DNA of 26,685 nucleotides from a virus: IMG/VR virus record IMGVR_UViG_3300042507_008775, positions 1-26,685 of that record, one strand, 5' to 3'. Below, in pieces: positions 5,406 through 26,489 of this stretch. The notes beneath the pieces are model-generated. The model saw only the letters and a list, made by a program, of their open reading frames with translations. It did not search any database and had not been told where the DNA came from. Made by a program: the position numbers and the translations under genes. How positions within the stretch are numbered: the stretch's first letter is position 1; each line of letters starts with the position of its first letter.

Positions 5406-5546
5406 TGTTTTTTCTTTTGAAAATTTATTATTATATTTGTGCGATATTGTATATATCAAAAAAAATATAATGTTGAAAATAAACTAAATATTCCTTAACT
5501 TATAGAATGTTAAAAACAAATTGTTCATTGAATCAAAGGAAAACAA
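5406..5546. other. Divergent intergenic control region
   Basis: These 141 very A+T-rich bases separate minus-strand structural genes from the plus-strand replication operon. They contain the minus-strand GATATATA element and, reading right, an AAAGGA ribosome binding site 8-10 bases before the clamp ATG at 5547. A plus-strand promoter must exist here or nearby. TTG at about 5473 followed by TTAACTTATAGAAT is a weak candidate that only partly matches the Bacteroidota TTG/TANNTTTG pattern. Confidence 0.45.
5450..5457 (-). promoter_or_regulatory. GATATATA promoter-like element (site 1)
   Basis: On the minus strand this reads TTTGATATATAC, 44 bases before the ATG at 5405. A T-tract and TTATAT lie immediately upstream. 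It is one of six exact copies of the octamer in the window. The flanking block (about 5449-5495) is nearly repeated at 20053-20100. It sits in the 141-bp divergent region between this gene and the replication operon. I infer a phage-specific promoter; no transcription start is known. Confidence 0.5.
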
Positions 5547-6332
5547 ATGAAAGACAAATCCAAAAAACTTGACTTTGCCAATGTAAATGGCATAAAAATG
5601 TCAGAATTTTTAGACAGATTTACTCATTTTGATGAAAATCTTCTTTTAGAGATTACTCCAAATGAGTTTTATGCAAAAACCTACACTCCTGATAGAAGTG
5701 CTATCAAATATTCTGCTTTGAAGTTAGATGAAATACTTCAAATAAAAGATGAAACAATCCCTGATAACCTTAAAATAGGATTAATTGGTATTAGACAATA
5801 TCAGCAAGCCCTTAAATTCTTGGAAGGCTCCGAACAAGTATCTATGGCTGTTCAGTATATGACTATTGCAGGATTAGATACTGAAGAAGAAAATGTTTCC
5901 ATTAAAACTACATTTAATAATAATAAAGATTTGCAATTTTCCTTTGAAAATGGCTCTTTAACCATCTATGGAATCATTACAAATGATAAGTTTTTCAATG
6001 AGATAGCAAATATTGATAATCCTACCTTCTCTTTTGACCTTTCTTTAGAAGATTTGGTAAAAATCAAAAAATTTGCTAATATTGATAAATTAAATAATAA
6101 CTTAATTGCAGAATATAGAAAAGGAACGGTTATTTTGGGAAATCAGACCTTCAAATATAGACTCGCTTCTCAAAATAATGAGGGTGCAAGTGAAAGTATT
6201 GCAAGATTCCCTAAAAATTATTTGAATATGCTTGATAGTGAACCATATAGAGTTAAGGTAAGCGAATCAAGAATTGTATTTACTTCTGAAGATTCCCAAA
6301 CTATTTTGGTTGTAGGAAGAAACGATGCCTAA
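5547..6332 (+). CDS. 45: Sliding clamp (T4 gp45-like DNA polymerase processivity factor)
   Basis: This 261-residue protein shows the two-domain layout of PCNA/gp45 clamps. Residues about 14-100 (NGIKMSEFLDRFTHFDENLLLEI) match the pattern of a PCNA first domain, with a central YTPDRSAIKYSALKLDEIL segment. Residues about 155-175 (SFDLSLEDLVKIKKFANI) resemble the second-domain helix of gp45. The C-terminus SRIVFTSEDSQTILVVGR looks like the last clamp strand pair. T4 gp45 is 228 residues, so this one is slightly longer. It would encircle DNA as a trimer and tether the polymerase, and in T4 it also activates late transcription. The gene overlaps the polymerase gene by 8 bases, which supports coupling and the assignment. 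A good AAAGGA site precedes the ATG. The clamp loader genes (44/62) are not in the window. Confidence 0.7.
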   Translation: MKDKSKKLDFANVNGIKMSEFLDRFTHFDENLLLEITPNEFYAKTYTPDRSAIKYSALKLDEILQIKDETIPDNLKIGLIGIRQYQQALKFLEGSEQVSMAVQYMTIAGLDTEEENVSIKTTFNNNKDLQFSFENGSLTIYGIITNDKFFNEIANIDNPTFSFDLSLEDLVKIKKFANIDKLNNNLIAEYRKGTVILGNQTFKYRLASQNNEGASESIARFPKNYLNMLDSEPYRVKVSESRIVFTSEDSQTILVVGRNDA

Positions 6333-7557
6333 TGGACTAAAATATACGGATATAGACCTTGAAACCGCTACTTATGAAGAAATAAAGGCGGAAATAGATA
6401 GGTTGAAGAAATTGAATCATGATCTTTATAATGAAGAGCAAGGTATCAAAATCTTTATTAATTCCGTATATGGTGCATTTGGTAATACTCATTTCCTATG
6501 CTTTAATGTAAATGTAGCAGAAGCAATTACTCAGCAGAGTGTTGATATATCTTTACATGCTAAAAAAATATTTGATAATTATTTTACAAATCATTGGCAT
6601 AAAGATAAAAAACTACATAAACAACTTGGGATTGAATCTGATGTTAAACCTTTAGGTGAAGAAAGCCTTTTGATTCAAGGAGATACGGATTCTGCATATT
6701 TTCGGTTTGATAGAGTTATTGAATCTGCAAAATATGCAGGAGACTCTCCTGTTGACTTCATTCTTGATGTTTATAAATATCGGTTGCATAATTATATCGT
6801 AAATGCGTATGATATGTATGCAAAAAAGAGAAATACCCAAAATCTTATGGACTTTGAGTTTGAGAAGTTAATAAGAATTGGTATATTTATAGCCAAAAAG
6901 AATTATGCTATTGAACTTGCATTCAAAACTACTGCAATTAAAGTGGAAGGAGATGAAGTTTCAATAGAAGGAATCAAATACGATGGAGGAAAATTATCGG
7001 TAACAGGTCTTGAGGCAGTTAAACCTTCTCATCCATCGTGGTGTCGAGCAAAATTACAAGAAATGCTTAATCTTCTTCTTCATTCCTATAAGGATAGTGG
7101 TAAAATAAAATATGAAGATATTTTAGTTACCCTTAAAAAATGGCGTAAAGAGATGGAAATGAAAGATTTAGATGAAATTTCCGAAACCAAAAAAGTATCA
7201 GATTATGATAAATGGATTATTAATGATAGATCGGAAATAGTTGTTAAATCTAAATGTCCTATGCATGTTAGAGGTTCAGCTATTTACAATTATACATTGT
7301 CTCGTTCAAAGTATAATATGAAATATCATAGAATTAAGTCAGGTGATAAAATCAAACAATATTATGTTAAATCAAATACCAAAAAAGATGACATATTTTG
7401 TTATTTACCACAGAATCATCCAAAAGAATTTGCACCATTTATAGATTATGATAAACAATTTGCGAAAAAAATTATAGAACCTACTAATAGATTACTTGAA
7501 GTTATTGGTGTTCGAGCAATACCAGATACTTTAATTGTTATTAACTCTTTATTCTAA
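6325..7557 (+). CDS. 43: Family B DNA polymerase, C-terminal half (split gp43)
   Basis: The 410-residue product starts just before polymerase motif B (K42 to G50, KIFINSVYG) and contains motif C (GDTDS, D120 and D122, palm metal ligands). It also has the thumb KKxY motif (AKKNYAIEL), the KCPMHVRG motif seen in T4/RB69 gp43, and a short hydrophobic C-terminus (INSLF) in the place of the clamp-binding tail of T4-type polymerases. Missing are the 3'-5' exonuclease domain and palm motif A (DxxSLYP), which carries the other catalytic Asp. The protein therefore cannot work alone and must pair with an N-terminal half encoded elsewhere. The ATG is real: it overlaps the clamp stop by 8 bases, and the preceding 40 residues look like fingers-helix sequence, not a truncated remnant. 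Split gene 43 is known in some T4-like phages. The break here is in the fingers. Confidence 0.92.
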   Translation: MPNGLKYTDIDLETATYEEIKAEIDRLKKLNHDLYNEEQGIKIFINSVYGAFGNTHFLCFNVNVAEAITQQSVDISLHAKKIFDNYFTNHWHKDKKLHKQLGIESDVKPLGEESLLIQGDTDSAYFRFDRVIESAKYAGDSPVDFILDVYKYRLHNYIVNAYDMYAKKRNTQNLMDFEFEKLIRIGIFIAKKNYAIELAFKTTAIKVEGDEVSIEGIKYDGGKLSVTGLEAVKPSHPSWCRAKLQEMLNLLLHSYKDSGKIKYEDILVTLKKWRKEMEMKDLDEISETKKVSDYDKWIINDRSEIVVKSKCPMHVRGSAIYNYTLSRSKYNMKYHRIKSGDKIKQYYVKSNTKKDDIFCYLPQNHPKEFAPFIDYDKQFAKKIIEPTNRLLEVIGVRAIPDTLIVINSLF

Positions 7558-7570
7558 AATATAAAAACTT

Positions 7571-10485: not shown

Positions 10486-10944
10486 ATGAGCAATTCACGA
10501 TATAAGCGTGGAGATAAAATATTAGATAATGATTTTAATCAAAATAATATTGAATTTAATGCTGTCCAAACTAATAATCTAGATGAAGTCTATGTAAGTC
10601 AATATTTAGATTATTGTAAAAATCCTCAAGAGTATGATCGTAGGTCAAGACTTGAAACTCATATTGTTGAAGTTTTAGAACATTCTGAATTTGCTCATTA
10701 TCTTATTGAGCAAAGGAAATTTCCTAAAAATTTCTTGTCAGACCTTTATGTTCTTGTTCACACAAATACATCTACTATGGAGTGGACAAGAGTTGAATTG
10801 ATTGATAAAACGGCAGAAATCCTTAAAATCAATCTTTCTCAATTTTTCAATGCTATACCTGTAAAATTCAAAGAAGAACTCCTTAATGAATTAAATGTTG
10901 ATTTTGAAATATTCAAGAGTAAAAAGATAGGAAGATTATTCTAA
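10486..10944 (+). CDS. Unknown protein ending in a possible clamp-binding tail
   Basis: The 152-residue protein has no recognised family. The first 45 residues are polar and Asn-rich. The rest is helical (THIVEVLEHSEFAHYLIEQ and TRVELIDKTAEILKINLSQFF), and it ends KKIGRLF at the extreme C-terminus. A short hydrophobic tail after a charged stretch is typical of proteins that bind T4-type sliding clamps (gp43, gp33, gp55). The polymerase two genes away from the clamp here ends INSLF. That invites comparison with gp33, the late-transcription co-activator, but size and overall sequence do not settle it. It is the last gene of the replication operon, 16 bases after the helicase stop. Confidence 0.75.
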   Translation: MSNSRYKRGDKILDNDFNQNNIEFNAVQTNNLDEVYVSQYLDYCKNPQEYDRRSRLETHIVEVLEHSEFAHYLIEQRKFPKNFLSDLYVLVHTNTSTMEWTRVELIDKTAEILKINLSQFFNAIPVKFKEELLNELNVDFEIFKSKKIGRLF

Positions 10945-10994: not shown

Positions 10995-11010
10995 TTGGAA
11001 TATATACCAA
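10995..11010 (+). promoter_or_regulatory. Imperfect palindrome with AATATATA, promoter or operator candidate
   Basis: The sequence TTGGAATATATACCAA sits in the 88-bp gap between the replication operon and the neck gene, 22 bases before the ATG at 11033. It is an inverted repeat with one mismatched pair. It also contains GGAATATATA, one base longer than the GGATATATA form found upstream of minus-strand genes. It could be the plus-strand version of that promoter or a regulator site. The gap has no terminator-like hairpin. Confidence 0.35.
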
Positions 11011-11032: not shown

Positions 11033-13006
11033 ATGAGTTCTTATTTATCTCTAAATGGTGATTATGCCATCATAAGTCAATCTATTACTAATTTATCAAG
11101 GGTTAGTAGTTATCAGATTGTAGAAAATGTTGATTATGATGATGTTGATAATACCACTGTTGAAAAAGTCTTTCGTTGGAGTTACGACCAAGAAACTTAT
11201 TCTTCATGGGTTGAGTTAAATCAAACTAATGTTGAAAATGTATCTTTAACTAATCAAACAATTCTTTATCTTCAAATAAGATACACTCTCATATCAGGTT
11301 CGCCTCTTACAATCAATAGCATTGAACCATTAATTATTACGATACCTGAAAGTACTGATGATAATGTAATTCAACCTCCATCTAACGCATATACATCTGG
11401 TAATCATAGGGGTGCAGCATTTTTAAATAATTTCTATTTTGATCCATATGCGGTTAATTTAGCCGTAGAACTACAAAGAAAACTCTCCTACAATGTAAAC
11501 CTCATATTTGGTCATAAAGCTGCTTATATCAGAGTTACACCACAAATGCGATCATTAGATGTCATTCTAAGAGAATATGGAATCTATGAATCATCAAAAG
11601 ATTACAAATGTGTTAAAATATTAGTCCCAAATAATCAATTCCCAGATTCAAAATTAAATTTCAATCCATTTAATATTGATTATGAAGAACCTTTTGAAGT
11701 CCATATAGATAAACGATATTTTGAATCATTCTTTGGAAAGGGAATTGGGCCTCAAAAGCGAGATATAATTTATTTACCGATAGCAAATAGATTGTTTGAA
11801 GTTGCATCTTCAACGCAACATAGAGATTTAATGTACAAAGACCTTTATTATAAAGTATCTTTGATTAAATATGCAGATAAAGCAAATGTTTTGAAAGATG
11901 AAACTATTATGAGTGAATTGGATGAATTATCAAATTCTACGGCAGAACTCTTTGATAATAAGATTGACCAAGAATTAAAGAAGATAAATAATACCCAACA
12001 ATTTACTGTTGCTACAAGAAAATCTGATAAAGTAAGAGATTATATTGATAGCAACCTTCTTATTGAAGAAAGAGATTTAGTAAATTATCATACACTTATA
12101 TCACATTATCGTTATGATTTGAGTGCTTCTATCACAGATAGCAATAATGTTGTAAGAACTATGGTTGATTATTTAGTTCCTGTAACATGGGATGAAACAA
12201 GTGAAAGAGCTTTAACATGTTGGTTCTTATTAAGAAATCCAACATCTCTAATTCGTTCTGTTACTATTCTTGAAGAATATGGAACAGAATTGGTAATAAC
12301 TACCAATGCTGATGTTGGGGCTTCTGTTGGAGATACGGTAACATTTTCTAAAACAAATTCTGAACTTACATTTTATGCGACAGTTTTGGAAAAAATAAAC
12401 GCTACAAAGATAAGAGTTCAGATAACTGATTCTGTGCAACAATATTTAAATAACACATATCCAGATTGGTCATGTAATTGTGTAGGTTTGAAAGTTAGAA
12501 AAAATTATCCAAGAATTTTTATAGATGGGTTGTATAATAGTCAAGGATTTCGTTTAGAAAACCATGATAGAAGATTCTTTAAGGCAACAGTCGGTAGTGA
12601 TATTTATGATTTTATTTTACCGAATAACTTAAATTTGGATACTTGGTATTGTTTGGTATTCAACTATTCTGCAAAATATAAGCAACTTTCTTTAACCATA
12701 TTAAAGAGAAAGTGGAATCCGAATACAAATACACCAACGACTACAGAAATGGATGTAGTTTATGAATATATCTATAATAATATTGAAATAAATGATGTAT
12801 CTCATCCATATAAATATAAAGTATTGGCTAGTTATATGAAGATGACTAATCTTCGTTTAATGTCTGTTACCATTGAACCTGAAAAAATGGTTAAATTTTT
12901 AAATGAATCAATAGTAGCAGATTCCGATCAATCAATTATTATTGATAATGCTATCCCAAGAATGCGACTACCTTATGTCGGTGGTCATCCAAACAAATTA
13001 TTGTAA
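11033..13006 (+). CDS. gp14-like neck domain fused to lectin-like C-terminal domain
   Basis: This is a 657-residue virion protein. Residues about 170-285 resemble the T4-type neck protein gp14: FEVHIDKRYFESFFG aligns with the usual VSRRRF strand, KRDIIYLPIANRLFEV with the GDIIYFP...LFEI motif, and MYKDLYYKVSLIKYAD with the following YKL...F strand pair. The first 120 residues form a separate beta-rich domain. Residues about 360-640 include WYCLVFNYSAKYKQLSLTIL, a jelly-roll/LamG-like strand pattern. T4 gp14 is 256 residues, so this one is far longer. Its partner in gene order is the small terminase 32 bases downstream, matching the T4 order 14-15-16 without gp15. Neck function is therefore moderately supported. 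An adhesive role for the C-terminal domain is inference. Confidence 0.6.
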   Translation: MSSYLSLNGDYAIISQSITNLSRVSSYQIVENVDYDDVDNTTVEKVFRWSYDQETYSSWVELNQTNVENVSLTNQTILYLQIRYTLISGSPLTINSIEPLIITIPESTDDNVIQPPSNAYTSGNHRGAAFLNNFYFDPYAVNLAVELQRKLSYNVNLIFGHKAAYIRVTPQMRSLDVILREYGIYESSKDYKCVKILVPNNQFPDSKLNFNPFNIDYEEPFEVHIDKRYFESFFGKGIGPQKRDIIYLPIANRLFEVASSTQHRDLMYKDLYYKVSLIKYADKANVLKDETIMSELDELSNSTAELFDNKIDQELKKINNTQQFTVATRKSDKVRDYIDSNLLIEERDLVNYHTLISHYRYDLSASITDSNNVVRTMVDYLVPVTWDETSERALTCWFLLRNPTSLIRSVTILEEYGTELVITTNADVGASVGDTVTFSKTNSELTFYATVLEKINATKIRVQITDSVQQYLNNTYPDWSCNCVGLKVRKNYPRIFIDGLYNSQGFRLENHDRRFFKATVGSDIYDFILPNNLNLDTWYCLVFNYSAKYKQLSLTILKRKWNPNTNTPTTTEMDVVYEYIYNNIEINDVSHPYKYKVLASYMKMTNLRLMSVTIEPEKMVKFLNESIVADSDQSIIIDNAIPRMRLPYVGGHPNKLL

Positions 13007-15363: not shown

Positions 15364-15400
15364 AAACACATCCTTATAGTATTAAAAACTAATTATACTA

Positions 15401-15433
15401 CAAAGATAAGAAAAATTATTGATTTTCCTTCAA
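15401..15433 (-). promoter_or_regulatory. Bacteroidota-type promoter of the exonuclease gene
   Basis: On the minus strand the -7 box TATCTTTG (15401-15408) matches the Bacteroidota consensus TANNTTTG exactly. TTG at 15431-15433 sits 22 bases upstream, at the wide end of the normal spacing for the -33 box. Transcription would start about 30 bases before the ATG at 15363. The -33 region overlaps the end of the upstream tail gene. This suggests recognition by the host primary sigma factor. Confidence 0.6.
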
Positions 15434-15975: not shown

Positions 15976-18900
15976 TTATAATGGTATTCTTGTGCCACTA
16001 TTGCCACCACCACCACCAGTACCACCTGGAACAGCTTTCTTTATTATATCCCATTTATGTCTTTGTTCATAAGGATTAGTTTTTATGTTCAAAAATCGAT
16101 TGCTTCCTATTCCACCTGTATCTGTCATTAGATACACACCTTCTACTAAATTTGGTGCAATGATGTTTTTAATTTCTATTTTAACATATCTAATATCAAA
16201 AGTATTATTACCCCCACTCAAAAGAGATTGTCCTTTTTCAGTTAATTGTGAATAAATAATATCACCTACTACTAAATACTGAATTGTATCTACTTGAACA
16301 ATAACTCTTCTATTATTTGTCTTAAAACCATCGTATGTAAATGGTGTAAATTTATAGAACGATTCAGTTGTTCCGTTTGATAAATTCTTAAAAGTTAATT
16401 CATTTCTTACTTGACTATCCCAATCAATAACTTTACCGTATACAATTTTGTCCGTGTTTTCAGAAGGTGGGTTAGTACCTGTACCTGAATTAGATCCTGT
16501 ATTATTTCTTACATTTCTATTTCTTTCTCTAGCAATAGGAGTAAGATTATATTGTGGATCTGAAAAATTATTATTTCCACTTGCTGTATTTGTTGTACCA
16601 CCTATCAGTCTATTCAGTGTTGCATTAACATTTGAATTAGCATTAGTACCAACTGAAGAACCCGATCCAGCAAGTTGGAAACCTTTCTTTGAAGTATCTA
16701 GTCCAGCATCAATAGTTATTGGGTTAAAGCCAGTTGATGGCAATACGCCTAAATCATTACCTGATTTACCTGCGAAATCTACATAATTAATTTTACTTGC
16801 TAAATTTGTAATAGTCACATTGTTATTATTATTTATACCAATGTTTCTATTCAAAATATCAGATGCTCTAACTCTACTCCCTTGTGTTCCTTGTGTTCCT
16901 TGTGTACCAGTTCCTTGGTTACCTTGATTACCAGTTCCTTGATTACCAGTTCCTTGATTGCCTGTACCTTGATTACCAGTTCCTTGATTGCCCGTACCTT
17001 GATTACCAGTTCCTTGATTACCAGTTCCTTGATTACCTTGGTTTCCAGTTCCTGTATCTGTAGGTGTCGCATTTTCTAAATCTTCAATAGATTTTAATAT
17101 TTTATTAAGTTGGTCTTGAAATGCAGCTATATTAGCATTTTCTGCCTCAGCTGCTTTTTTAGCTTGATCTCTTAAATCTCTTTCTCTTTGATTGAGAATT
17201 TTTTCACGACTATTGACATCATTCTGTAATGTATTAAGTAAATTGGATTGATTTGTTTGAGCAAGTTTTTGAGCATTTAATCTTGCTTCAAGTGCCAACA
17301 ATTCAGACGCTCTTTGATCCAATTCAGATTGTCTTGAATTAAGAGATAATTGCCCAGTACGAATCTTATTAAGAATTCTTTCTAATTCAGCTTTTCTTAT
17401 ATTTTCAATATCATCTTTAACTTTATCAGCATCTTCCATTCTTCTCCATTTACCTGTATAAAGCGTTGTTTCACTTACACCTGAACCAGTTGGAATAACT
17501 TGAATAACTTGAAGCATACTTTTAGCTACAAAGTAACTTACACCATCAAAAATCAATTCAAAATTATCTGTATCCCCTTTTGAATAATATTCTTTTGAAA
17601 TAATATTAAATTCTTTATTTGCTACTGCTCCAACATAAGTATCGCTAACTTTTACTTTTATAAAGGAAGGTACTTTTGATGTGATGTAAAAAATACCCTT
17701 TTCGATAGCATAAATATTGGATGCTTCTTTTGCAGGTATTTTAAAAATAACTTCACCTTCTGCTAAATTAGTAGAGTAAAACCCTTCTATTTTTGAGAAT
17801 TTAACTCTTTTATTATCATATTCTATTACAAGGAATAAATCAACATCATATCGTAAATCAAGACTTGTTGTTTGATTTCCCTCTAAATATCTATGCATTT
17901 TGAATTTGACATAATTCTCATAAGGGTGAATGAGAAGAATTGCTTCACCTTGACCGAAAATAACATCCCAATTCCAAACAGATTCCGTTGTAAATGTTCC
18001 GTCACTTTTTAAAATAACATTAGATGTATTTACAGCAATTTCATTAAAATCAAAAAATGTAGGAGTGTATAGTTTTTCAATCTTCTTTTCTATATTAGAT
18101 TTATTAACTTGAAGTTTAGTCTCTTCTATAATTTTATTATAAATCTTAAAAGAACGTACATCGGTATTTAAATTAACCTTTTCAATTTTTCTGCCATAGC
18201 GTTTTGGTTCAAAAGAAGTTACTGATGCAGTTCTCACAATTTGTGAACCTGTATCTTTATCAGTAAGTCTCATCACATAATCTATACTAAAGGAATATGC
18301 AGAATCTGCATTTTTCAAGATGGGTCTAAATCTTTTTGGAGCATTAAAGTCTCCTTCCTGTATAGATACAAAATAATCACTCTGAACTTGACTAAAACCT
18401 ACTTGCTCGTAAATATACAATTCGTGGAAAACATAATAGTCTCCACCAATACCATTAAGATTAGTGACTAAATCTTCAACGAAACCACCTTGCCATGAAG
18501 GATAATATTCAAAACAATCTTCTTCATCATTCTCAACAATTACTGCATTAAGAAGACTAAAAGAATCTTGTTGTTTATAGGTAACATCGGTAACATTCCC
18601 AGTAGTTAAACTAAGAACAGTTCCATTATCATTACTTGTAGAAATTTCTCTAAGAGTAATAGAAATTAGACCATTCTTTTCAAAACCTTGATTATCAGAG
18701 GATAACCAATATGCTAAAGCTCCGCTTGTGGGATTAGAGTAATACTCTTCATTCAAATAGAAAAGGGAAGGGATTAAAACTTCAATATATCTATCATAAC
18801 TTCTTCCTGCAATTACTATAGGACGAGCATTGAATTTAATATATTCATCGCCCTTTAAATATGCTATTTGAGCTATTGTACATTTTTTACCTGAAACCTC

Positions 18901-19296
18901 AGGATATTCAACACTCAAAAGCAAACCATCTAAATCTTCTAAATTATATCCTGATAAAAGATGAAGTTTTAAAGTTTCATATTCAACTGGCCATTGCGTA
19001 GAAGTTAAATTCCCTAAAAGTTCTTGAGAAAGATTTGAAGCATCATATACATTATATGGAATGGCTCTATCTTGGTCTAAATGTGCCCAAGACCTTATAT
19101 CAGTTAATCTAACGGCAGATCTATCTAAAATATTAGAAGTAGGATTATTTCCTTTGGTTACATTTAATATCTGTCTTTCATTTGTATAAGAAGAATCTAT
19201 TAACAAAAAAGACTGAGTATTTGTAGATATAGTTGTTACATCGTAATCTAATTCTACTAATGCATAGTTTGATATTTGAAGTAAAGATTTTGCCAT
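15976..19296 (-). CDS. Large baseplate/tail protein with coiled coil and GTGNQ repeats
   Basis: This 1106-residue protein has four regions. Residues 1-620 form several beta-rich domains of unknown family. Residues about 622-745 are a long, Arg/Glu/Gln-rich coiled coil (IRKAELERILNKIRTGQL to LKSIEDLENA). Residues about 748-805 are a pentapeptide repeat, GTGNQ (eight copies plus GNQ and GTQ variants). Residues 806-1106 are low-complexity Asn/Gly/Thr followed by a beta-rich C-terminal domain (GKVIDWDSQVRNELTFKN to RHKWDIIKKAVPGG) and a Gly-rich tail. The layout (domain, trimerising coil, flexible rod, C-terminal domain) suggests an elongated oligomeric tail component. The ATG is 1 base from the stop of the gp5-like gene, indicating translational coupling with the spike. 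No enzymatic motif is visible. Confidence 0.8.
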   Translation of the reverse strand: MAKSLLQISNYALVELDYDVTTISTNTQSFLLIDSSYTNERQILNVTKGNNPTSNILDRSAVRLTDIRSWAHLDQDRAIPYNVYDASNLSQELLGNLTSTQWPVEYETLKLHLLSGYNLEDLDGLLLSVEYPEVSGKKCTIAQIAYLKGDEYIKFNARPIVIAGRSYDRYIEVLIPSLFYLNEEYYSNPTSGALAYWLSSDNQGFEKNGLISITLREISTSNDNGTVLSLTTGNVTDVTYKQQDSFSLLNAVIVENDEEDCFEYYPSWQGGFVEDLVTNLNGIGGDYYVFHELYIYEQVGFSQVQSDYFVSIQEGDFNAPKRFRPILKNADSAYSFSIDYVMRLTDKDTGSQIVRTASVTSFEPKRYGRKIEKVNLNTDVRSFKIYNKIIEETKLQVNKSNIEKKIEKLYTPTFFDFNEIAVNTSNVILKSDGTFTTESVWNWDVIFGQGEAILLIHPYENYVKFKMHRYLEGNQTTSLDLRYDVDLFLVIEYDNKRVKFSKIEGFYSTNLAEGEVIFKIPAKEASNIYAIEKGIFYITSKVPSFIKVKVSDTYVGAVANKEFNIISKEYYSKGDTDNFELIFDGVSYFVAKSMLQVIQVIPTGSGVSETTLYTGKWRRMEDADKVKDDIENIRKAELERILNKIRTGQLSLNSRQSELDQRASELLALEARLNAQKLAQTNQSNLLNTLQNDVNSREKILNQRERDLRDQAKKAAEAENANIAAFQDQLNKILKSIEDLENATPTDTGTGNQGNQGTGNQGTGNQGTGNQGTGNQGTGNQGTGNQGTGNQGNQGTGTQGTQGTQGSRVRASDILNRNIGINNNNNVTITNLASKINYVDFAGKSGNDLGVLPSTGFNPITIDAGLDTSKKGFQLAGSGSSVGTNANSNVNATLNRLIGGTTNTASGNNNFSDPQYNLTPIARERNRNVRNNTGSNSGTGTNPPSENTDKIVYGKVIDWDSQVRNELTFKNLSNGTTESFYKFTPFTYDGFKTNNRRVIVQVDTIQYLVVGDIIYSQLTEKGQSLLSGGNNTFDIRYVKIEIKNIIAPNLVEGVYLMTDTGGIGSNRFLNIKTNPYEQRHKWDIIKKAVPGGTGGGGGNSGTRIPL
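16881..17052 (-). repeat. 15-bp tandem repeat encoding GTGNQ
   Basis: A 15-bp unit (plus-strand form CCTTGATTACCAGTT) is repeated with few substitutions and occasional 9-bp units. It encodes the GTGNQ/GNQ array of the large baseplate protein. The near-identity at DNA level, including synonymous positions, points to recent expansion by slippage or recombination. All units are multiples of three, so the frame is kept. Confidence 0.9.
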
Positions 19297-19297: not shown

Positions 19298-20047
19298 TTA
19301 GAGTGAAGTTTTTACTGTTTTTGATGTACTTGCAACCTCTGCCGTTGCAGCGAGACTAGTCAACACACCTGGTGAAGGTGGCCACTTAGCATCTGTTGCA
19401 GCAGCGAGTGCTTTTAGAAATACCCACAATGGTTCTGCACATATATTAGAAAATACAGGTGCTGCACCCAATTCAGTCTTTACGCCATTTACATGGACAT
19501 TAGAACTATTAATTTCAATTTTAGTAGGAGCAGTTGCTTCTATCTTATTATTTGCTACAATAGTTATATTTGAGCCGTTTAATTCGATTACAGACTGCGT
19601 AGCGTCATGTTCTATCGTTATAGACTTATCTGGATTTATCGTTAAATGTGAGCCATTTAAGTGGTATTTAAGACCAATTGATGGACTATAGAGGAGTTTC
19701 ATCTTCTCATCTTCATCATAAGTAACGACATGTGAATTCAAGTACGAAGCATCTAATTCAGCACTCATTGCCTGATTTGCTATTGGGATGCTCCAATAAA
19801 CAGGACTATAAGAATCTCCATTCTCAAATTTAACCCTAACTATCGTATCAATTTTAGGAATACTTATAGAACCAAACCCCTTAGATTCACCGCCTGCAAA
19901 TGTCGTATTATAAGCAGGAAATGCCCATGGTAATTCTTCATCAAGTAGTTCATCGAACACACCTAAAATCCGAATTTTGCAACGACCTATCCTTTCAGGA
20001 TCATCGTTAATCACAACTTTTCCAAAATAAGTTTGAGTTCTTTCCAT
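19298..20047 (-). CDS. 5: gp5-like baseplate hub/spike protein without lysozyme domain
   Basis: This is a 249-residue protein. Residues 1-95 match the gp5/VgrG N-terminal OB-fold: TYFGKVVINDDPERIGRCKI, then LPWAFPAYNTTFAGG, then GSISIPKIDTIVRVKFENGD and PVYWSIP. Residues about 130-190 are repetitive beta strands (SITIEHDATQSVIELNGSNI, ATAPTKIEINSSNVHVNG), typical of the trimeric beta-helix needle. The C-terminus AEPLWVFLKALAAATDAKWP resembles spike ends of other myophages. T4 gp5 has a lysozyme domain between OB-fold and helix; here none is present, so cell-wall digestion must come from another protein. Upstream lies a promoter-like element only 6 bases before the ATG (with AGGACTT as ribosome binding site), and the next gene follows 1 base after its stop. 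Confidence 0.85.
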   Translation of the reverse strand: MERTQTYFGKVVINDDPERIGRCKIRILGVFDELLDEELPWAFPAYNTTFAGGESKGFGSISIPKIDTIVRVKFENGDSYSPVYWSIPIANQAMSAELDASYLNSHVVTYDEDEKMKLLYSPSIGLKYHLNGSHLTINPDKSITIEHDATQSVIELNGSNITIVANNKIEATAPTKIEINSSNVHVNGVKTELGAAPVFSNICAEPLWVFLKALAAATDAKWPPSPGVLTSLAATAEVASTSKTVKTSL

Positions 20048-20052: not shown

Positions 20053-20100
20053 CTATATATCAAAAAAAATATAACTTGAAAATTTTATCTAAATATTACC
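20053..20100 (-). promoter_or_regulatory. GATATATA element (site 2) within conserved 47-bp block
   Basis: On the minus strand the octamer (20054-20061) follows TTATAT and a T-run, and ends 6 bases before the ATG at 20047. The surrounding block, from the stop codon region of the upstream gene to the octamer, is nearly identical to 5449-5495. If the octamer is a -10 box, transcripts would be almost leaderless. Otherwise it acts at another level. Confidence 0.5.
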
Positions 20101-23100
20101 TCAATCCTATATTTTTAGGACTTGCTGTATTATTAATATTAGGTTCTTCCAATTCAATTCTAGTTTGAATTGTATTTCTATTTGTAGAACCTTCTAATTC
20201 TATTTTAGTTTGTGTAGATTGATTTCTTATAACTCCTATTGTAGGCTTTTCTACTAATCCTATATTTTTCAATGGAGTATTAGTTAAAGGAGAAGAACCT
20301 TGTAATTCAACATTTTTCACATCAAATGATCCTTTACTTCCTTGTCCTGTTAAATTAACATTACCAAAAGATGTTGAATTAACTTCACTTCCTTGTAAAT
20401 TTACGTTTTTATCCATAGAAGTTTGTGGTGTTTTACCAGATAATTCTACATTCTTTTGCATAGTTATAGAATTTTGAACACCTTTTAGTTCAACATTTTG
20501 AGTAGAAATATTAGTTTGAGGAACACTACCTTGAAGTTTTACATTTGTTTCAGTTAAATCACGAAGTGGATTTGCTCCTAATAAAGTTTCTTTTCCTAAA
20601 TCTTTAACATCAGATTGTGTTGATGTCATATTACCAACATTAGGAGATGAAAAATTTCTCATAGGTTCTTTACCTTCAAGTGTCTCAACACCCAAATTAT
20701 TATTAGGACGAGTAGTAAATCCTTGTAAATTGGCATTAGTTTCTATTAAATCTCTTTGTGGAGAAGAACCTTCGAGTTCAATATTAGCATCCATTTTATT
20801 TACAGGGGTATTCCCTTCTAAATTAGCATTCGTTTCTGTCAATGTTCTTTGTATAGAAGGTGATGCTAAATCAATAGTTTTTTCATCAAAAGAGCGAATC
20901 GGAGAAATTCCAACTAAATCTACATTTGGACTTTCAAAAGATGTAGCAACATTTGGAGATATAAGATTTTCTTTTTGAGAATTAAAAGATGTTTGAGGTG
21001 ATGCTCCAACTAAATCAATACCTGAAGGGTTTAATTCTTTTAAAGATTCATTACCAGTTAAAGATACATTATTGTTATTAAATCTATTTAGAGAAGATGT
21101 ACCTACTAAATTAGCATTACTTGGAATCAAATCCTTTAGAGCTTCTGCTCCTGTCAAATCAGCATTACTTGGAACTAAATCCTTTAAAGGTTGTGCTCCT
21201 TGTAAATTGGCTTGATTTGGAACTAAGTCCTTTAAAGGTTGTGCCCCTGTTAAATCAGCATTACTTGGAACTAAATCCTTTAGAGGTTGTGCCCCTGTTA
21301 AATCAGCATTACTTGGAACTAAATCCTTTAAAGGTTGTGCCCCTGTTAAATCAGCATTACTTGGAACTAAATCCTTTAAAGGTTGTGCCCCTGTTAAATC
21401 AGCATTACTTGGTGTTAAATCTGTTTTCTTTCCAGCTCCTTGTAAATTAGCATTCGTTTCATCAAACGAAGTTTTAGGAGTGGAGCCAGTCAGATTTTCT
21501 TTTATTGGATTTAGTTTTGTTTCTTTCCGAACTTCTGAAAATTCAACATTATCAGGCATTGTTGTTTCTACTCTTGGCTTTTCAAGTTCTATATTTTTTT
21601 GGTCAAATAATTTATTTAAAGGATCAGGATTTAAGAATAAACTTTGTCCAGGTCTACCGATAGCTTGGAATCTAGGATCAGATCCTTCTCCTGTTAAATT
21701 TGCTTGAACATCACTTAAAGAACGTTGAACACTTGGAGCGGATAGTTGAATATTAGAAGGAATACCATCTCTTAAATTAGGAGGAGTAGGTCTTCCTGAT
21801 GTTTCAACATTAATACCTAATGCACCAGCCAAAGCAGGATTTGAAAAGTTTTGAGCAACTTGATTCAAGTCACCATTTAATATACCTAACCCTACTCCAG
21901 CTGCGGAACGATATAGTTCGTTTCCGTAAACATTTTTTGCTATATTTTCAGTAGCCATACTTAATGCTTCTTGAGCAAGTTCAGATGCTGTATCTCCAAA
22001 GAAATCACCTACTGAACCTAAAAATCCATCACTAGTTGTTCCACCTGATAATACCCCACCTATTCCAAATGGTAAAGCACTCACACCTTCGCTAATACCA
22101 GCACCCAAAACATTTCCAAAACCATTATCTTCTAAAATAACACGCTTATTATCACCTTTCTCTCTTTCAAGATTTTGAAATTCTTTCCAAGAAGGAAGTA
22201 TAGGTTTAGCAACATTCTTCAAATTTTCTGATAATTTTGCTACTCCATTTTCATCACTAGATTTTAAAAGGTTTTCTAAAAGATTATCACTTAAAGCATA
22301 TTTTAACAAACTATATGTGTTTGTTTCTAAAACTCTACCGATATTTATAGTAAATTCAGAGTCAAATGCTTTTATATTTGAATGACTAAGATTTGAAATA
22401 CTAGAACTATTGTACATATCAAATTCACAATCTTGACAATCAAATAATAGGCATGAATAATGATTGTCCCACCATTGTAGTCGTTTTACGAAAGAAAGAG
22501 CACCATCATTAACTCTACCTAATAGTTTACCACCAATATTACTACCATTGAAAACATCTATATCTCTTAAAGCATCAAGTGCTTGTCTTGGATTTATAGA
22601 GTAATTGTCTTCTGTGACTGCAAGTTGTCTGAAATCTCCAATTAAAATGCTCATTCTAAATCTACGCATATTAATTGGTAAAATCCATCTTCTATATTTC
22701 CTATCGTATGCGGCCTTACGATATAAATCCTTCAAAGCGTGGATTTTATAATCTATACTTTCAAGAGTTTTAATAGTAATAGTTGCTTCTGATCCTCCTC
22801 TAGAGGAAAATTTTGATGGATATCCTTGAGAATATAAACTTCCTAAACCATCTACACTTTGAAAATACCATGGAGTTTTTTCACTAATTGATTTGAGCAT
22901 TTCGATGAATTTTTCCATCATTCTTGCTCTTTCAGGTTCTCCAACAGAATAAAGAAATTGAACAGCAGATTCAGGACCACTTGTTAAAAGTCTATTAGAT
23001 ACATAATCAGGATGTTTTGAATCTCTTGGAACAAATTCAAACTTCAAATGAAATATAGGATATGTAGGGTCTTCATAATTATAATTATTAAGAATACCTG

Positions 23101-23161
23101 GGTCTCTAACACTTGATATCCCTAAAAATTTTCTTAAAAAAGCATCTGCTGCGTATACCAT
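20096..23161 (-). CDS. Tube-initiator-like baseplate protein with ~35 16-residue repeats
   Basis: This 1021-residue protein has two halves. Residues 1-290 contain YRRWILPINMRRFRMSILIG (156-175) and LLFDCQDCEFDMYNSSSISN (238-257), patterns seen in T4-like tube-initiator and baseplate proteins of the gp48/gp54 type, and they have a folded-domain composition. Residues 350-450 are Gly/Ala-rich. From about 460 to the end it is a repeat array with a period close to 16 residues and consensus xxxxNxxLxGxxPxxx. Residues 581-676 contain near-identical copies of LVPSNADLTGAQPLKD; outer copies are divergent. No coiled coil is visible. The N-terminal half should sit at the tail-tube/baseplate junction, and the repeat half is probably an extended or solenoid-like chain. 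Position between gp13-like and gp5-like genes supports a central tail role. Confidence 0.75.
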   Translation of the reverse strand: MVYAADAFLRKFLGISSVRDPGILNNYNYEDPTYPIFHLKFEFVPRDSKHPDYVSNRLLTSGPESAVQFLYSVGEPERARMMEKFIEMLKSISEKTPWYFQSVDGLGSLYSQGYPSKFSSRGGSEATITIKTLESIDYKIHALKDLYRKAAYDRKYRRWILPINMRRFRMSILIGDFRQLAVTEDNYSINPRQALDALRDIDVFNGSNIGGKLLGRVNDGALSFVKRLQWWDNHYSCLLFDCQDCEFDMYNSSSISNLSHSNIKAFDSEFTINIGRVLETNTYSLLKYALSDNLLENLLKSSDENGVAKLSENLKNVAKPILPSWKEFQNLEREKGDNKRVILEDNGFGNVLGAGISEGVSALPFGIGGVLSGGTTSDGFLGSVGDFFGDTASELAQEALSMATENIAKNVYGNELYRSAAGVGLGILNGDLNQVAQNFSNPALAGALGINVETSGRPTPPNLRDGIPSNIQLSAPSVQRSLSDVQANLTGEGSDPRFQAIGRPGQSLFLNPDPLNKLFDQKNIELEKPRVETTMPDNVEFSEVRKETKLNPIKENLTGSTPKTSFDETNANLQGAGKKTDLTPSNADLTGAQPLKDLVPSNADLTGAQPLKDLVPSNADLTGAQPLKDLVPSNADLTGAQPLKDLVPNQANLQGAQPLKDLVPSNADLTGAEALKDLIPSNANLVGTSSLNRFNNNNVSLTGNESLKELNPSGIDLVGASPQTSFNSQKENLISPNVATSFESPNVDLVGISPIRSFDEKTIDLASPSIQRTLTETNANLEGNTPVNKMDANIELEGSSPQRDLIETNANLQGFTTRPNNNLGVETLEGKEPMRNFSSPNVGNMTSTQSDVKDLGKETLLGANPLRDLTETNVKLQGSVPQTNISTQNVELKGVQNSITMQKNVELSGKTPQTSMDKNVNLQGSEVNSTSFGNVNLTGQGSKGSFDVKNVELQGSSPLTNTPLKNIGLVEKPTIGVIRNQSTQTKIELEGSTNRNTIQTRIELEEPNINNTASPKNIGLR
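21134..21421 (-). repeat. 48-bp tandem repeats encoding a 16-residue unit
   Basis: Six consecutive 48-bp units in this stretch encode LxPSNADLTGAxxLKD-type repeats. Several are identical or differ by one or two bases. Divergent repeats of the same period extend on both sides across roughly 20096-21785. Near-identity in the centre and divergence at the edges is the expected signature of unequal recombination within an older array. Confidence 0.92.
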
Positions 23162-23179: not shown

Positions 23180-23746
23180 TTATTCGCCACCATCTCCACC
23201 ATCCATACTACCATCAAGAGTAAATGGTGCTTCGTAGCGACCCATAGAAGTTATGCTACCTTCACTATCCTTTGTATCATTATGATCGCTAAATTGATCG
23301 TGATTTTTTAATTGAAGGTTTTTAATAAAATCTTCAAAATGCAGAATTGTTCCATGAGGTTGGAAATGGGTTATACCTTTTTCAGGATGATAATGCTTCA
23401 TTGGATCGGTTTTCTTTGCCTTTCTATCTTTTTTAGCCTTTTTGAGAAAACCTTGAGTAAACACTCCATAAGCATTAAACACATCTCCACTTCCAGCAGA
23501 TGTTGCAGTTGGTGGAGTAACAGCACCCATTCCAGGTGTAGAACTTAAAGTTGAAAATTGCTCATCAACATGTTTTGGAAGTTTCTTTCCTTTCGGGGTT
23601 TTAACATAATCTTCCAATTCTTTATAAGTCATTGATTTGGCAATATCTTTAACATCTTGAGATACTTCCTCGCTTTTAATATAACCTTTCTTATAAGCGA
23701 GGGCTAGTCTCATTAGATTTAATTGAGCTTGAGATTTTGCAGGCAT
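23180..23746 (-). CDS. DUF3008-like phage protein with His/Asp-rich tail
   Basis: The frame is open to 23827, but the start is placed at the ATG at 23746 because residues 1-60 from there (MPAKSQAQLNLMRLALAYKKG, then DVKDIAKSMTYKELEDYVKT and KGKKLPKHV) match the DUF3008-type start MPAKSKAQ found in many phage proteins. The longer start would overlap the neck gene by 44 bases. This gives 188 residues. The C-terminal part is low-complexity: a Lys-rich stretch (FLKKAKKDRKAKK, about 101-113), then HYHPEKGITHFQPHGTILHF, and an acidic, Gly-rich end. The family's function is unknown. Here it lies between neck and tail genes, so a virion or assembly role is plausible. Confidence 0.72.
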   Translation of the reverse strand: MPAKSQAQLNLMRLALAYKKGYIKSEEVSQDVKDIAKSMTYKELEDYVKTPKGKKLPKHVDEQFSTLSSTPGMGAVTPPTATSAGSGDVFNAYGVFTQGFLKKAKKDRKAKKTDPMKHYHPEKGITHFQPHGTILHFEDFIKNLQLKNHDQFSDHNDTKDSEGSITSMGRYEAPFTLDGSMDGGDGGE

Positions 23747-23761: not shown

Positions 23762-23770
23762 TATATATCC
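23762..23770 (-). promoter_or_regulatory. GGATATATA element (site 3)
   Basis: On the minus strand this reads AAGGATATATAAAAAAAATC, 15 bases before the ATG at 23746. It lies just after the end of the gp13-like coding sequence (stop near 23784). It is an exact octamer match to the other sites. The location supports the internal ATG over the longer start. Confidence 0.45.
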
Positions 23771-23783: not shown

Positions 23784-24515
23784 TCAATTAAATTGGATAA
23801 ACCAACTTGGTGGTGCTTCTTTATCAATCTGTTCTTTTACTTCTTGAAGTTCTCTTTCACCAGCATCTTTTAACAGACTACCATTTATTGTTACTCCTGA
23901 TGGGAGTTGGTAGGTATACAAACTATACATAAATCCTAACTGAATTTTGCTTTTAGCAAAAACCCATCTAATAAATAAATCGTCATCATAAAGACTATCT
24001 TGTGAAACCTTTGAATAGCATTTAACAATAGAACTAGTTCTTGGATTACGACCTGTTACTTTAATTCTTTTGCTATTAGGGTTAAAAGAATAAGCGATGG
24101 TATCCAAAAAGTATGCTTTTGTTATATCCCAATAAGCATATTGAGCAGTTCTTAATACCAAATCATCACCAATAATAGGCGAAAGAAAGAGTTCAGATGC
24201 TATAATTTTATTTTCTGTAATATCTCGGTCAACTATACCAATTCTTGAACCACCACGGATTTCTCTAAAATCCTGAATAGTCATCACACAGTCTGGCATC
24301 TGAATATATCTTCTATCTGTAAATTCTTTAGTTCCGAAATAAGAATGAGGTATGATATAATAATCAGATTCAACTGCAAATTTATAATTGATATAAAACC
24401 ATCTTTCAGCATTTTTTATGATACGCTCAATTTCTCTTGGGGATATAGAATTTGGCAAACCACTTGAAACTGTCAATTCATCTTGTGTGAGTTCTACAAG
24501 TTCATCGAGTGTCAT
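23784..24515 (-). CDS. 13: Neck protein (T4 gp13-like)
   Basis: The 243-residue protein ends with the hallmark of gp13-type neck proteins. YQLPSGVTINGSLLKDAGERE (202-222) is followed by EAPPSWFIQF, aligning with QLPGGVTLNG..., the dA..E helix and the PP.FFIG end of cyanophage and T4 gp13. A helical ITKAYFLDTIAYSFNP segment (131-146) and YDDDLFIRWVFAKSKIQLG (176-194) match the preceding helices. T4 gp13 is 309 residues. It would join the head portal to the neck with gp14. The gp14-like protein is encoded far away on the opposite strand in this genome. The ATG at 24515 is 25 bases below a promoter-like element, and the gene is the first of the minus-strand tail cluster. Confidence 0.75.
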   Translation of the reverse strand: MTLDELVELTQDELTVSSGLPNSISPREIERIIKNAERWFYINYKFAVESDYYIIPHSYFGTKEFTDRRYIQMPDCVMTIQDFREIRGGSRIGIVDRDITENKIIASELFLSPIIGDDLVLRTAQYAYWDITKAYFLDTIAYSFNPNSKRIKVTGRNPRTSSIVKCYSKVSQDSLYDDDLFIRWVFAKSKIQLGFMYSLYTYQLPSGVTINGSLLKDAGERELQEVKEQIDKEAPPSWFIQFN

Positions 24516-24540: not shown

Positions 24541-24548
24541 TATATATC
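24541..24548 (-). promoter_or_regulatory. GATATATA element (site 4)
   Basis: Minus-strand TTAGGATATATAGAAT lies 25 bases before the gp13-like ATG at 24515. The terminator of the preceding gene sits just upstream (24572-24597), so this position is the natural start of the tail transcription unit. This is the best-placed copy for a promoter role. Confidence 0.55.
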
Positions 24549-24571: not shown

Positions 24572-24597
24572 AAAAAAGCCCCTTATCGGGGCATTTT
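24572..24597 (-). terminator. Rho-independent terminator of the 24596-24973 gene
   Basis: On the minus strand a 5-bp GC stem (GCCCC/GGGGC) with a 5-base loop is followed by TTTTTTA. It immediately follows the stop codon at 24596 and precedes the gp13 promoter-like element. Confidence 0.85.
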
Positions 24598-24973
24598 AAC
24601 TATAAAGATTTATGAGGATTTTTTGTAGTTCCAAGTATTCTTCAAATACTTCTCCTTGTTCTTCGCATATTTCAATCAAAGTTGAAGAATCTTGAGTTGT
24701 TCTGAGGGTTGTGTTTTGAAAATCTAATTCAACGAAAATATTGTATAAATCCACAAAGTCTGGGAGTTTTTCAACTTCTTTTTTAAATTTTTCAGATAAA
24801 ATAAAAACGAAGGTCTTATCTTTATCCATCATTTTATCATACATTTCATTAAGAAGCGTATCAAAGTTGAATTTTATATTTTCAATTTTTTCAGTAGAAC
24901 TTGTAATAACATTTGTTAATTCTTCAATATTAGTCCTATCCTCAAAAGATTCAGAAGCTGCTAAAGCAACCAT
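24596..24973 (-). CDS. Acidic helical protein of unknown function
   Basis: This 125-residue protein begins MVALAASESFEDRTNIEEL and is acidic and mostly helical, with a long amphipathic stretch (NVITSSTEKIENIKFNF, and LSEKFKKEVEKLPDFVDLYN). No family is recognised. The region just upstream of the ATG is open in the same frame for 12 codons and would read ERKKLLKLLVMVALAAS, a basic-then-hydrophobic helix. It has no ATG of its own and is preceded by a TGA. A short ORF from 25037 ends at a CCT-TGA directly before it in another frame, so the true N-terminus may be longer by frameshift. It is followed at once by a terminator. Upstream lie a 270-bp leader with repeats and a promoter-like element. 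Confidence 0.7.
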   Translation of the reverse strand: MVALAASESFEDRTNIEELTNVITSSTEKIENIKFNFDTLLNEMYDKMMDKDKTFVFILSEKFKKEVEKLPDFVDLYNIFVELDFQNTTLRTTQDSSTLIEICEEQGEVFEEYLELQKILINLYS

Positions 24974-25063: not shown

Positions 25064-25102
25064 AAATCCTCAAGTTGATTTTGTAATCAACTATGAGGAT
25101 TT
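25064..25102. repeat. Large hairpin (17-bp stem, one bulge, 4-base loop)
   Basis: The left arm is AAATCCTCA plus AGTTGATT and the right arm is AATCAACT, a bulged A, then TGAGGATTT; the loop is TTGT. All 17 stem pairs are perfect. The right arm belongs to a 24-bp direct repeat that recurs at 25161-25184, where only the outer CCTCA/TGAGG pairing survives. It is not followed by a U-run long enough to be a standard terminator. Confidence 0.85.
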
Positions 25103-25160
25103 AAATTTTCTTTAATGTAATATGAAATTCAACCATCTTTAATATTAAACCCTCAAAAAA

Positions 25161-25184
25161 TTTGTAATCAACTATGAGGATTTA
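25161..25184. repeat. Second copy of the 24-bp direct repeat
   Basis: The 24 bases beginning TTTGTAATCAACTATGAGG are identical to 25080-25103, 81 bp away. Similarity continues on both sides at lower identity (TTAAACCCTCAA against TAAAATCCTCAA on the left, and a shared TTTAA to the right). Two copies only, so it is not a CRISPR array. Confidence 0.85.
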
Positions 25185-25210: not shown

Positions 25211-25218
25211 TATATATC
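25211..25218 (-). promoter_or_regulatory. GATATATA element (site 5)
   Basis: Minus-strand ATTTTTGATATATAATTTT, preceded by a T-rich run like sites 1 and 2. The nearest complete minus-strand gene begins only at 24973, so a transcript from here would have a leader of about 240 bases containing both direct repeats and the hairpin. Confidence 0.45.
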
Positions 25219-25425: not shown

Positions 25426-25503
25426 TTAGATGAAAATGTGAATAATAGACAAAATAATGCTAATTGAAATAATTAAATCAGATATTGATTTTTTAGTTTT
25501 CAT
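25426..25503 (-). CDS. 25-residue single-span membrane peptide
   Basis: The frame MKTKKSISDLIISISIILSI runs from the ATG at 25503 and ends IHIFI, with a basic N-terminus and one hydrophobic helix. It lies 22 bases after the 25526 gene stop and 4 bases before the two-helix protein. At this length it could occur by chance in A+T-rich DNA. The clean basic-then-hydrophobic pattern and tight packing favour a real gene, weakly. Confidence 0.4.
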   Translation of the reverse strand: MKTKKSISDLIISISIILSIIHIFI

Positions 25504-25525
25504 AGTGGATTTAAAGTAAATTAAA

Positions 25526-25768: not shown

Positions 25769-25770
25769 AG

Positions 25771-25992: not shown

Positions 25993-26014
25993 TGGATTTC
26001 TTTGTTACGAATTT

Positions 26015-26033
26015 TTGCAATTATTATATGCAA
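26015..26033. promoter_or_regulatory. TTGCA inverted repeat, possible operator of the HTH gene
   Basis: TTGCA (26015-26019) and TGCAA (26029-26033) form an inverted repeat with a 9-base spacer. On the minus strand this reads TTGCATATAATAATTGCAA and contains a TATAAT-like box, 23-41 bases before the ATG at 25992. A third partial TTGCGG half-site lies upstream. A repressor bound here would cover the promoter. Confidence 0.35.
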
Positions 26034-26065
26034 TTCCGCAAATTTGTTCAAAAAACAAAGTAATC

Positions 26066-26091
26066 AAAAAAATGCCCTCAAAAGAGGGCAT
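26066..26091 (-). terminator. Rho-independent terminator of the 26096-26452 gene
   Basis: An 8-bp stem (ATGCCCTC/GAGGGCAT, loop AAAA) is followed on the minus strand by a T-run. It lies 4 bases after the stop codon at 26096 and separates this gene from the HTH unit. Confidence 0.9.
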
Positions 26092-26095
26092 TCTA

Positions 26096-26452
26096 TTACT
26101 TCTTTTTATTGCCTCTTTTTGATGGTTTTGTATCACCATCGGTAGATTTAGGTAAAGCAGATGCGGGTTTTCTTCCTCTCTTCTTTACAGTTATTTCTTT
26201 TTCTGTTGATACTTTTTTAGCACTTTTTTTACCAACAGTTTCAACTTCTTTCAAAAATTTAACAGGTGATTTCTCTTTTTTAGTCTTTTTAGTTTTTGAA
26301 GTTTTTTCTTCAACGACTGGAACACTTGAAGCAGGAGTTGATTCTGCATTTGAAATCTCTGATGCCTTTGAAAAGATATGAAGATAATCTTTTAAAAAGA
26401 AATAAATTGAACCAATTATAAAAATTGATATAGTAAATACGAAAAATGACAT
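26096..26452 (-). CDS. Membrane-anchored Lys-rich protein with AT-hook-like motif
   Basis: This is a 118-residue protein. Residues 2-22 (SFFVFTISIFIIGSIYFF) form a single N-terminal membrane helix. A Ser/Thr/Ala linker follows, then a strongly basic C-terminal tail with KKTKKEK, KKSAKK and VKKRGRKPAS. The RGRK(P) core resembles an AT-hook (core RGRP) flanked by Lys, as in H1-like tails. The N-terminal span with no charged residue before it suggests an Nout-Cin or Nin-Cout anchor; orientation is undecided. A cytoplasmic tail could hold DNA at the membrane. An ATG at 26452 lies 29 bases below a promoter-like element, and a terminator follows. Confidence 0.72.
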   Translation of the reverse strand: MSFFVFTISIFIIGSIYFFLKDYLHIFSKASEISNAESTPASSVPVVEEKTSKTKKTKKEKSPVKFLKEVETVGKKSAKKVSTEKEITVKKRGRKPASALPKSTDGDTKPSKRGNKKK

Positions 26453-26481
26453 AAATATATCGTTATTTTTAAGGTAAAAAG

Positions 26482-26489
26482 TATATATC
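26482..26489 (-). promoter_or_regulatory. GATATATA element (site 6)
   Basis: Minus-strand TCGGGATATATACTTTTT, 29 bases before the ATG at 26452, in the 53-bp gap between two minus-strand genes. Spacing to the ATG is close to sites 4 and 10995-11010. Confidence 0.45.

Follow-up and report, generated by a model that had tools for sequence, protein, structure and literature searches.

The octamer GATATATA before late genes of a phage clade as a probable variant of the T4 late promoter

The DNA considered here, referred to as the window, is a whole virus record of IMG/VR (IMGVR_UViG_3300042507_008775; 26,685 bases, i.e., 26.7 kilobases (kb), classed as 'linear'), and it carries six copies of the octamer GATATATA, at which a sigma factor made by the phage very probably initiates late transcription. 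It is likely that GATATATA belongs to a late promoter of the T4 type that a gp55-like sigma recognizes, and its assignment as a variant T4 late promoter is supported by the comparisons below. In the proposed mechanism, GATATATA would act as the -10-like octamer of such a promoter. A small phage-encoded gp55-like sigma, comprising little beyond sigma domain 2, would dock on the host RNA polymerase and recognize the octamer with no -35 element involved, and in this way would serve virion genes and other late genes irrespective of strand. By analogy with T4, the replisome sliding clamp (probably the protein encoded at 5547-6332) may act as activator, coupling late transcription to replication, and the remaining genes would be served by other promoters, e.g., host ones of the TAnnTTTG type.

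If this is true, late transcription of the T4 type, possibly coupled to replication, reaches uncultured giant phages; a 2010 review regarded such coupling as confined to T4 and, perhaps, phages related to it (PMC2988020, section 9). Additionally, a natural series of sigma-octamer pairs would become available for the study of how gp55 reads DNA, the short string would allow late genes to be called in the AT-rich genomes of huge phages, and a leaderless class of late mRNAs would be predicted. No report of this octamer was found in the open-licence literature, subscription papers and preprints being outside the scope of that search.

Placement of the octamer in the window and its clade

A first-pass annotation of this DNA had listed six exact copies of GATATATA, all intergenic and in one orientation, and its coordinates are right: 6/6 lie on the minus strand and 6/6 fall within the 1,558 noncoding bases of the window, as defined with genes called from the first ATG. 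Five copies end 6, 15, 25, 29 and 44 nucleotides (nt) before a minus-strand ATG, exactly the range that had been claimed for them, and the copy at 25211 lies 237 nt from its gene (Table 1). Those at 5450 and 23762 are inside open reading frames (ORFs) started with TTG, for which the ATG starts that the relatives match were adopted. The count alone is weak, since 8/100 dinucleotide shuffles of the whole window (mean 2.41 copies) get to six or more. Because the window is mostly coding, such shuffling is too blunt, and its noncoding DNA was shuffled instead with dinucleotides preserved, which gave a mean of 0.28 copies and a maximum of 3, six being reached in 0/2,000 shuffles. The placement of GATATATA before genes is confirmed.

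As the window is only a 26.7-kb 'linear' record, the genome-wide count was made in relatives, namely eight more fragments of its clade (G001-G008) obtained when clamp, UvsX and structural proteins served as scan queries. G004, G006 and G007, which nearly duplicate parts of other records, were excluded from the statistics, as was G001 from some of them. Within 70 nt before the genes of G001, G002, G003 and G005, GATATATA ranks first in enrichment among all 8-mers, with 35 upstream copies vs 3 in same-strand coding DNA and 0.22 expected. When the window is added and 100-nt stretches are taken, 43 sense copies upstream stand against 3 in coding DNA and 12 antisense copies upstream; the octamer is therefore not equally frequent inside genes or in the opposite orientation, and its density upstream of genes is about 125 times that of coding DNA. 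Of the 24 octamers that differ from it by one base, AATATATA alone exceeds four upstream copies (11 vs 8 coding), and by these counts the G of the octamer is nearly fixed. In line with these results, 52/60 copies in G002, G003, G005 and G008 are wholly noncoding, a number reached in 0/500 shuffles (mean 3.45).

The 24 places that match the six window sites in G001, G002, G003 and G005 hold GATATATA in 23 cases and AATATATA in one, those of the 26096 gene in G002 and G005 having been assigned by position. The 25 bases before the octamer, when aligned on it, show a mean pairwise identity of 48%, and the column composition of 52 aligned sites reveals no conserved -35 element. The octamer is thus a short, rigid and sole conserved element.

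Gene class, strand and the host-type promoter

The octamer follows gene function, not strand. It had been proposed as a mark of minus-strand genes, a description that fails at the sole AATATATA of the window, which lies on the plus strand (10999-11006) and precedes the structural gene 11033; hence, the octamer is not strand-bound. In the clade rows that reach the start of this gene (G001-G006), its upstream site is AATATATA or, as in G003 and G005, GATATATA, and the LR756500 orthologue (28% identical) is likewise preceded by GATATATA. The minus strand of the window encodes, among others, baseplate-hub-like, tail-tube-like and adaptor Ad2-like proteins, and the plus strand a DNA polymerase C-part, a UvsX-like recombinase, a DnaB-like helicase and the Hc2-like structural protein. 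No octamer was found within 75 nt before the clamp, polymerase, UvsX and helicase genes in the clade rows. The octamer therefore stands before late (virion) genes and not before replication genes, and the timing of its use would be late. Together with the gp55-family matches in relatives (see below), this supports the earlier suggestion of a phage-specific promoter that serves structural genes through a phage sigma.

A phage sigma would be unneeded if the octamer were part of an extended -10 element (TGnTATA-like) read by the host housekeeping sigma, and a T does precede it at several sites, giving TGATATATA. Across the 52 sites, however, T precedes the octamer in just 38%, as often as A (38%), the G of the octamer is nearly fixed, and replication genes are without it. 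These phages also have a separate element before other genes, TAnnTTTG, which we take to be the form of the Bacteroidota host (housekeeping, sigma-A) promoter at -7. This element differs in sequence from the octamer and is seldom found on octamer-led genes: in five clade records, it lies in the 70 nt before 3/58 octamer-led vs 31/180 other genes. Recognition by the host sigma is accordingly a very improbable explanation of the octamer. In the window, TAnnTTTG occurs as TATCTTTG at 15401-15408, within a host-like promoter (15401-15433) that had been set apart from the octamer, and the element precedes the exonuclease gene in all eight clade rows listed. Its density upstream of genes in the five clade records is raised only 2.8-fold.

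Elsewhere, 8-mers of the TAnnTTTG type are strongly enriched upstream, as seen for TATCTTTG in Lak-C1 (L167-L186; 30 vs 9) and for TATATTTG in PTm1 (L223-L227; 25 upstream vs 6 coding).

The gp55 family in large relatives

The candidate reader of the octamer is a sigma of the gp55 family, and T4 gp55 is a member of phrog_234. Over 10 records, the profile of this family matched LR756500 (expectation value (E) 1.7e-12), Lak-C1 and Lak-A2 (1.4e-9) and LR756502 (1.9e-5), and over 9 further records it matched XacN1, MA9V-1, PAU, MaF61 (0.0018) and PTm1 (0.0056). LR756501 gave no match at E up to 1, yet it was matched by tblastn. PAU, MA9V-1, PTm1, XacN1 and LR756501 were chosen by their gp55 match and are for this reason no independent tests; among large relatives chosen by other genes (LR756500, Lak-C1, Lak-A2, LR756502 and MaF61), 5/5 have a gp55-family match, one of them weak. 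The gp55-like proteins comprise 121-161 amino acids (aa) in three phages, the MaF61 ORF being 245 aa long, and since sigma domain 2 is common, the label rests on this size as well. The nearest named phages of the UvsX and helicase of the window are the Lak megaphages and LR756500, at 35-38% identity. A helicase tree, in which a long branch sets the clade apart, was left out of the argument.

The octamer accompanies gp55 beyond the clade. In the best 80 of 479 gp55-bearing viral loci, which were selected by gp55 without regard to the octamer and are redundant, GATATATA is the top 8-mer, with 266 copies upstream vs 32 coding and 2.3 expected. In 24 of these loci, about one per gp55 tail and chosen by hand after the per-locus octamer counts were known, the figures are 88 upstream vs 10 coding. 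The same script applied to the T4 late region puts TTATAAAT (8 vs 1) and TATAAATA (11 vs 5) first, and in the crAss-like controls crAss001 and phi14:2 (50 kb each, gp55 content not surveyed) it finds no enrichment of GATATATA (1 vs 2 and 0 vs 2).

This association bears on the possibility that the octamer is a promoter for an RNA polymerase encoded by the phage, of the kind found in phiKZ- or AR9-like phages. Short late motifs are indeed present in giant phages that have a polymerase of their own, such as AACA-6N-TA/G in AR9 (PMC5312081), but the octamer goes with gp55-bearing contigs and has its frame in common with that of T4 (see below), which makes such a polymerase a very improbable reader, although no search of the relatives was aimed at RNA polymerase genes. 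Least probable is that the octamer is no promoter at all and instead binds a regulator or arises from the AT-richness of spacers, given that, for all the AT-richness of the noncoding DNA here and the start codons near the sites, the dinucleotide-preserving noncoding shuffles did not reach the observed counts (0/2,000 and 0/500), sense copies upstream prevail over antisense ones (43 vs 12) and the gap before the hub gene is fixed.

Octamer variants across lineages

In support of a T4-type promoter read by a gp55-like sigma, different lineages favor different octamers of one frame, xATAyATA. Among the 16 octamers of this frame, the favored ones (upstream/coding copies) are TATAAATA in T4 (11/5), GATAAATA in MaF61 (15/4), TATACATA in PAU (40/9), AATAAATA in Lak-C1 (70/32), AATATATA in LR756502 (157/45), AATATATA (19/10) and TATATATA (14/3) in LR756501, and GATATATA in the clade of the window (47/4). 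These counts cover the first 400 kb of Lak-C1 and LR756502 and 60-160 kb of MA9V-1, PTm1 and LR756501, with XacN1 and Lak-A2 excluded. The exact T4 consensus, TATAAATA, is not among the five best octamers of the clade. The T4 octamer lies at -13 to -6 (PMC1524935), which would put the varying bases at -13 and -9; relative to T4, the first octamer position is G and the fifth is T in the clade.

There is a published precedent for such divergence, as both the octamer and gp55 of the Aeromonas phage Aeh1 have diverged (PMC1524935; PMC2988020, section 9). Its late promoter, given as CTAAATA from -12, is changed at -13/-12 (PMC1524935), whereas the changes seen here are at -13 and -9. As Aeh1 shows that the exact letters are not universal in T4-like phages, the clade octamer is filed as a T4-type variant. 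The likeness to the T4 late promoter (TATAAATA, read with gp55/gp33/gp45) further includes the lack of a conserved -35 element, the position before virion genes on either strand, a gp55-family sigma in relatives and a clamp-like protein next to the polymerase. The first-pass annotation had noted the different sequence, as is borne out here; its phrase 'comparable in role' to T4 late promoters is too weak, as this looks like the same kind of system.

Two of these phages have further upstream motifs. LR756500 (W01) has a second one, TTATTATATTTA, perhaps of another promoter class (TATTATATT, 50 upstream vs 41 coding), and PAU a second family (AGTATAAT, 26 vs 5; TTCGTAGT, 14 vs 0).

Several observations weigh against the T4-type reading. 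The phrog_234 profile matches 0/9 fragments of the clade itself (G000-G005, G006-G008). Likewise, no clade gp55 was found by a local hidden Markov model at E up to 10 in all nine fragments, by a walk from one contig end, which returned only the starting contig, or by scanning bacterial genomes twice with proteins of the clade. The sigma that had been anticipated is thus matched in related large phages and not in the clade fragments; a diverged clade gp55 may be present among the relatives beyond the best 80 of 479, which were obtained with three gp55-like sequences and ranked by likeness to the LR756500 protein, and recognition of the octamer by the phage's own gp55 is what we infer. The profile also matches 7/14 control genomes and consequently marks sigma domain 2 broadly. 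Many late-type genes of the window are without an octamer of their own, and the 1, 15976 and 20096 genes lack one in the clade rows too; only some late genes have their own octamer, and these three would need co-transcription. In LR756500 the octamer is weaker (GATATATA 26/14, AATATATA 49/61) and other motifs are enriched too, and MA9V-1 (TATACATA 7/4) and PTm1 (AATACATA 5/2) are weak despite their gp55-like genes, with no clear octamer as the top 8-mer. Finally, the likeness of the candidate activator to a clamp comes from a model only, with whole-chain template modelling (TM) scores near 0.3.

A clamp-like protein and C-terminal tails

The protein encoded at 5547-6332 has no match to the gp45 family by sequence. 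In a Foldseek search with its model, the best 50 matches listed are almost only PCNA, 9-1-1 and bacterial clamps (E 1.4e-7 to 3.2e-6), and comparison with T4/RB69 gp45 gives Z 10.0-10.2 over 99-103 residues of the C-terminal half. Because full-length alignments have a root-mean-square deviation of about 14, only the per-domain match was used. The predicted local distance difference test (pLDDT) score of the model was 41 at first and 75 after the addition of four rows (one full-length, three partial). A gp45-type sliding clamp is therefore indicated in the same phage by the fold of the model, and the protein, encoded beside the polymerase, is probably the replisome sliding clamp. A scan with the LR756500 clamp returned one near-identical contig.

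In T4, the polymerase, gp55 and gp33 bind the clamp by hydrophobic, acidic C-termini (PMC2988020). The gp55-like proteins end in stretches such as GGMFNI, and activation of late transcription by the clamp is plausible here. An LF C-terminus is present in 15/22 distinct tails of the polymerase part and 25/27 of a 152-aa family. That the 152-aa protein is a gp33 co-activator is a guess. The LF tails common to this family (encoded beside the helicase) and the polymerase C-part could also serve in clamp binding as such.

Short gaps, leaderless mRNAs and an N-terminal peptide

The distance from octamer to ATG is 14-28 nt at 11/12 sites of the T4 late region, the remaining one being 73 nt, whereas some gaps here are of 4-9 nt. 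In LR756502, 151 copies of AATATATA lie at most 52 nt from an ATG, 91 of them at 0-9 nt (72 at 4-6 nt) and 55 at 17-30 nt. That the short-gap ATGs are real starts is supported by the proteins, since 43/91 begin M[KRN][HYFIL][LIV], vs 6/54 at longer gaps and 53/413 of genes without an octamer in 40 nt. Other AT-rich 8-mers of LR756502 are also found near ATGs (AAAAATAA, 34/69 at 0-9 nt), with peaks elsewhere. If the T4 geometry is assumed, short-gap transcripts would start at or next to the AUG; likewise, the 6-nt gap of the hub gene in 9/9 clade records predicts a leaderless late mRNA.

Octamer-led genes also tend to encode an MKYIKLFEEF-like start. It is found in 14/66 octamer-led vs 7/172 other genes of five clade records (P 1e-4), a figure that is not independent because the pattern was drafted from clade examples, in 31/154 vs 9/404 in LR756502 (P 1e-11) and in 12/81 vs 21/542 in LR756500 (P 4e-4). 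No such enrichment is seen in PAU (1/43 vs 5/240), Lak-C1 (0/71 vs 8/339) or T4 (0/11 vs 1/39). Internal head proteins of T4 have short capsid-targeting N-termini (PMC5694885), which the peptide may resemble in role. Octamer-led genes with this peptide in G005, G008, G002 and LR756502 (W04) are candidates for head-packed proteins.

A wider proposition, to which we give about even chances, is that the Lak and LR7565xx megaphages, large aquatic phages and T4 have one frame, xATAyATA, in which -13 and -9 are reset per lineage with gp55, and that the large 4-9-nt class of some lineages yields leaderless late mRNAs, including those of proteins with a capsid-targeting-like N-terminus.

Features of the window

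Table 1. Octamers, other elements and genes of the window (positions within the 26,685 bases).
Feature	Position	Strand	Remarks
GATATATA	5450..5457	-	44 nt before ATG of 1938 gene; GATATATA at 39-43 nt in G001, G002, G003, G005
AATATATA	10999..11006	+	ends 26 nt before structural gene 11033; sole AATATATA of the window
GATATATA	20054..20061	-	6 nt before hub-gene ATG; same gap in 9/9 clade records, five distinct sequences
GATATATA	23762..23769	-	15 nt before ATG of DUF3008 gene; AATATATA in G005
GATATATA	24541..24548	-	25 nt before Ad2-like gene
GATATATA	25211..25218	-	237 nt before 24596 gene; 62-84 nt in relatives
GATATATA	26482..26489	-	29 nt before 26096 gene; G002 and G005 matched by position, not BLAST
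TATCTTTG, TAnnTTTG-type element	15401..15408	-	37 nt before exonuclease gene ATG
Large late-type gene	1938..5405	-	downstream of 5450 octamer; phrog_29329, function unknown, E 8.5e-134
Sliding-clamp-like protein, 261 aa	5547..6332	+	model (pLDDT 75) matches PCNA, 9-1-1, bacterial clamps, gp45
DNA polymerase B C-part	6325..7557	+	ends NSLF; phrog_262, E 6.5e-58
152-aa protein, candidate clamp-binding	10486..10944	+	ends GRLF; tail family; no informative family match
Head-closure Hc2-like structural gene	11033..13006	+	phrog_679, E 8.8e-9
Baseplate-hub-like gene	19298..20047	-	phrog_37871, E 2.8e-13; phrog_430, E 2.1e-11
DUF3008 gene	23180..23746	-	PF11450, E 6.3e-8
Head-tail adaptor Ad2-like gene	23784..24515	-	phrog_211, E 1.8e-6
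Gene downstream of 25211 octamer	24596..24973	-	no PHROG match
Gene downstream of 26482 octamer	26096..26452	-	no PHROG match

Besides the features in Table 1, the family B polymerase is split, its exonuclease part (14653-15369, minus strand) lying apart from the C-part, and two large late-type proteins (15976-19296 and 20096-23161) contain tandem repeats of the GTGNQ and PSNADLTGAQPLKDLV types. In the spacer that separates the 25211 octamer from its gene, inspection by eye shows a hairpin-like repeat, AAATCCTC...GAGGATTT, on the minus strand at about 25064-25183; it has a partial second copy and is absent from the shorter spacers of the relatives.

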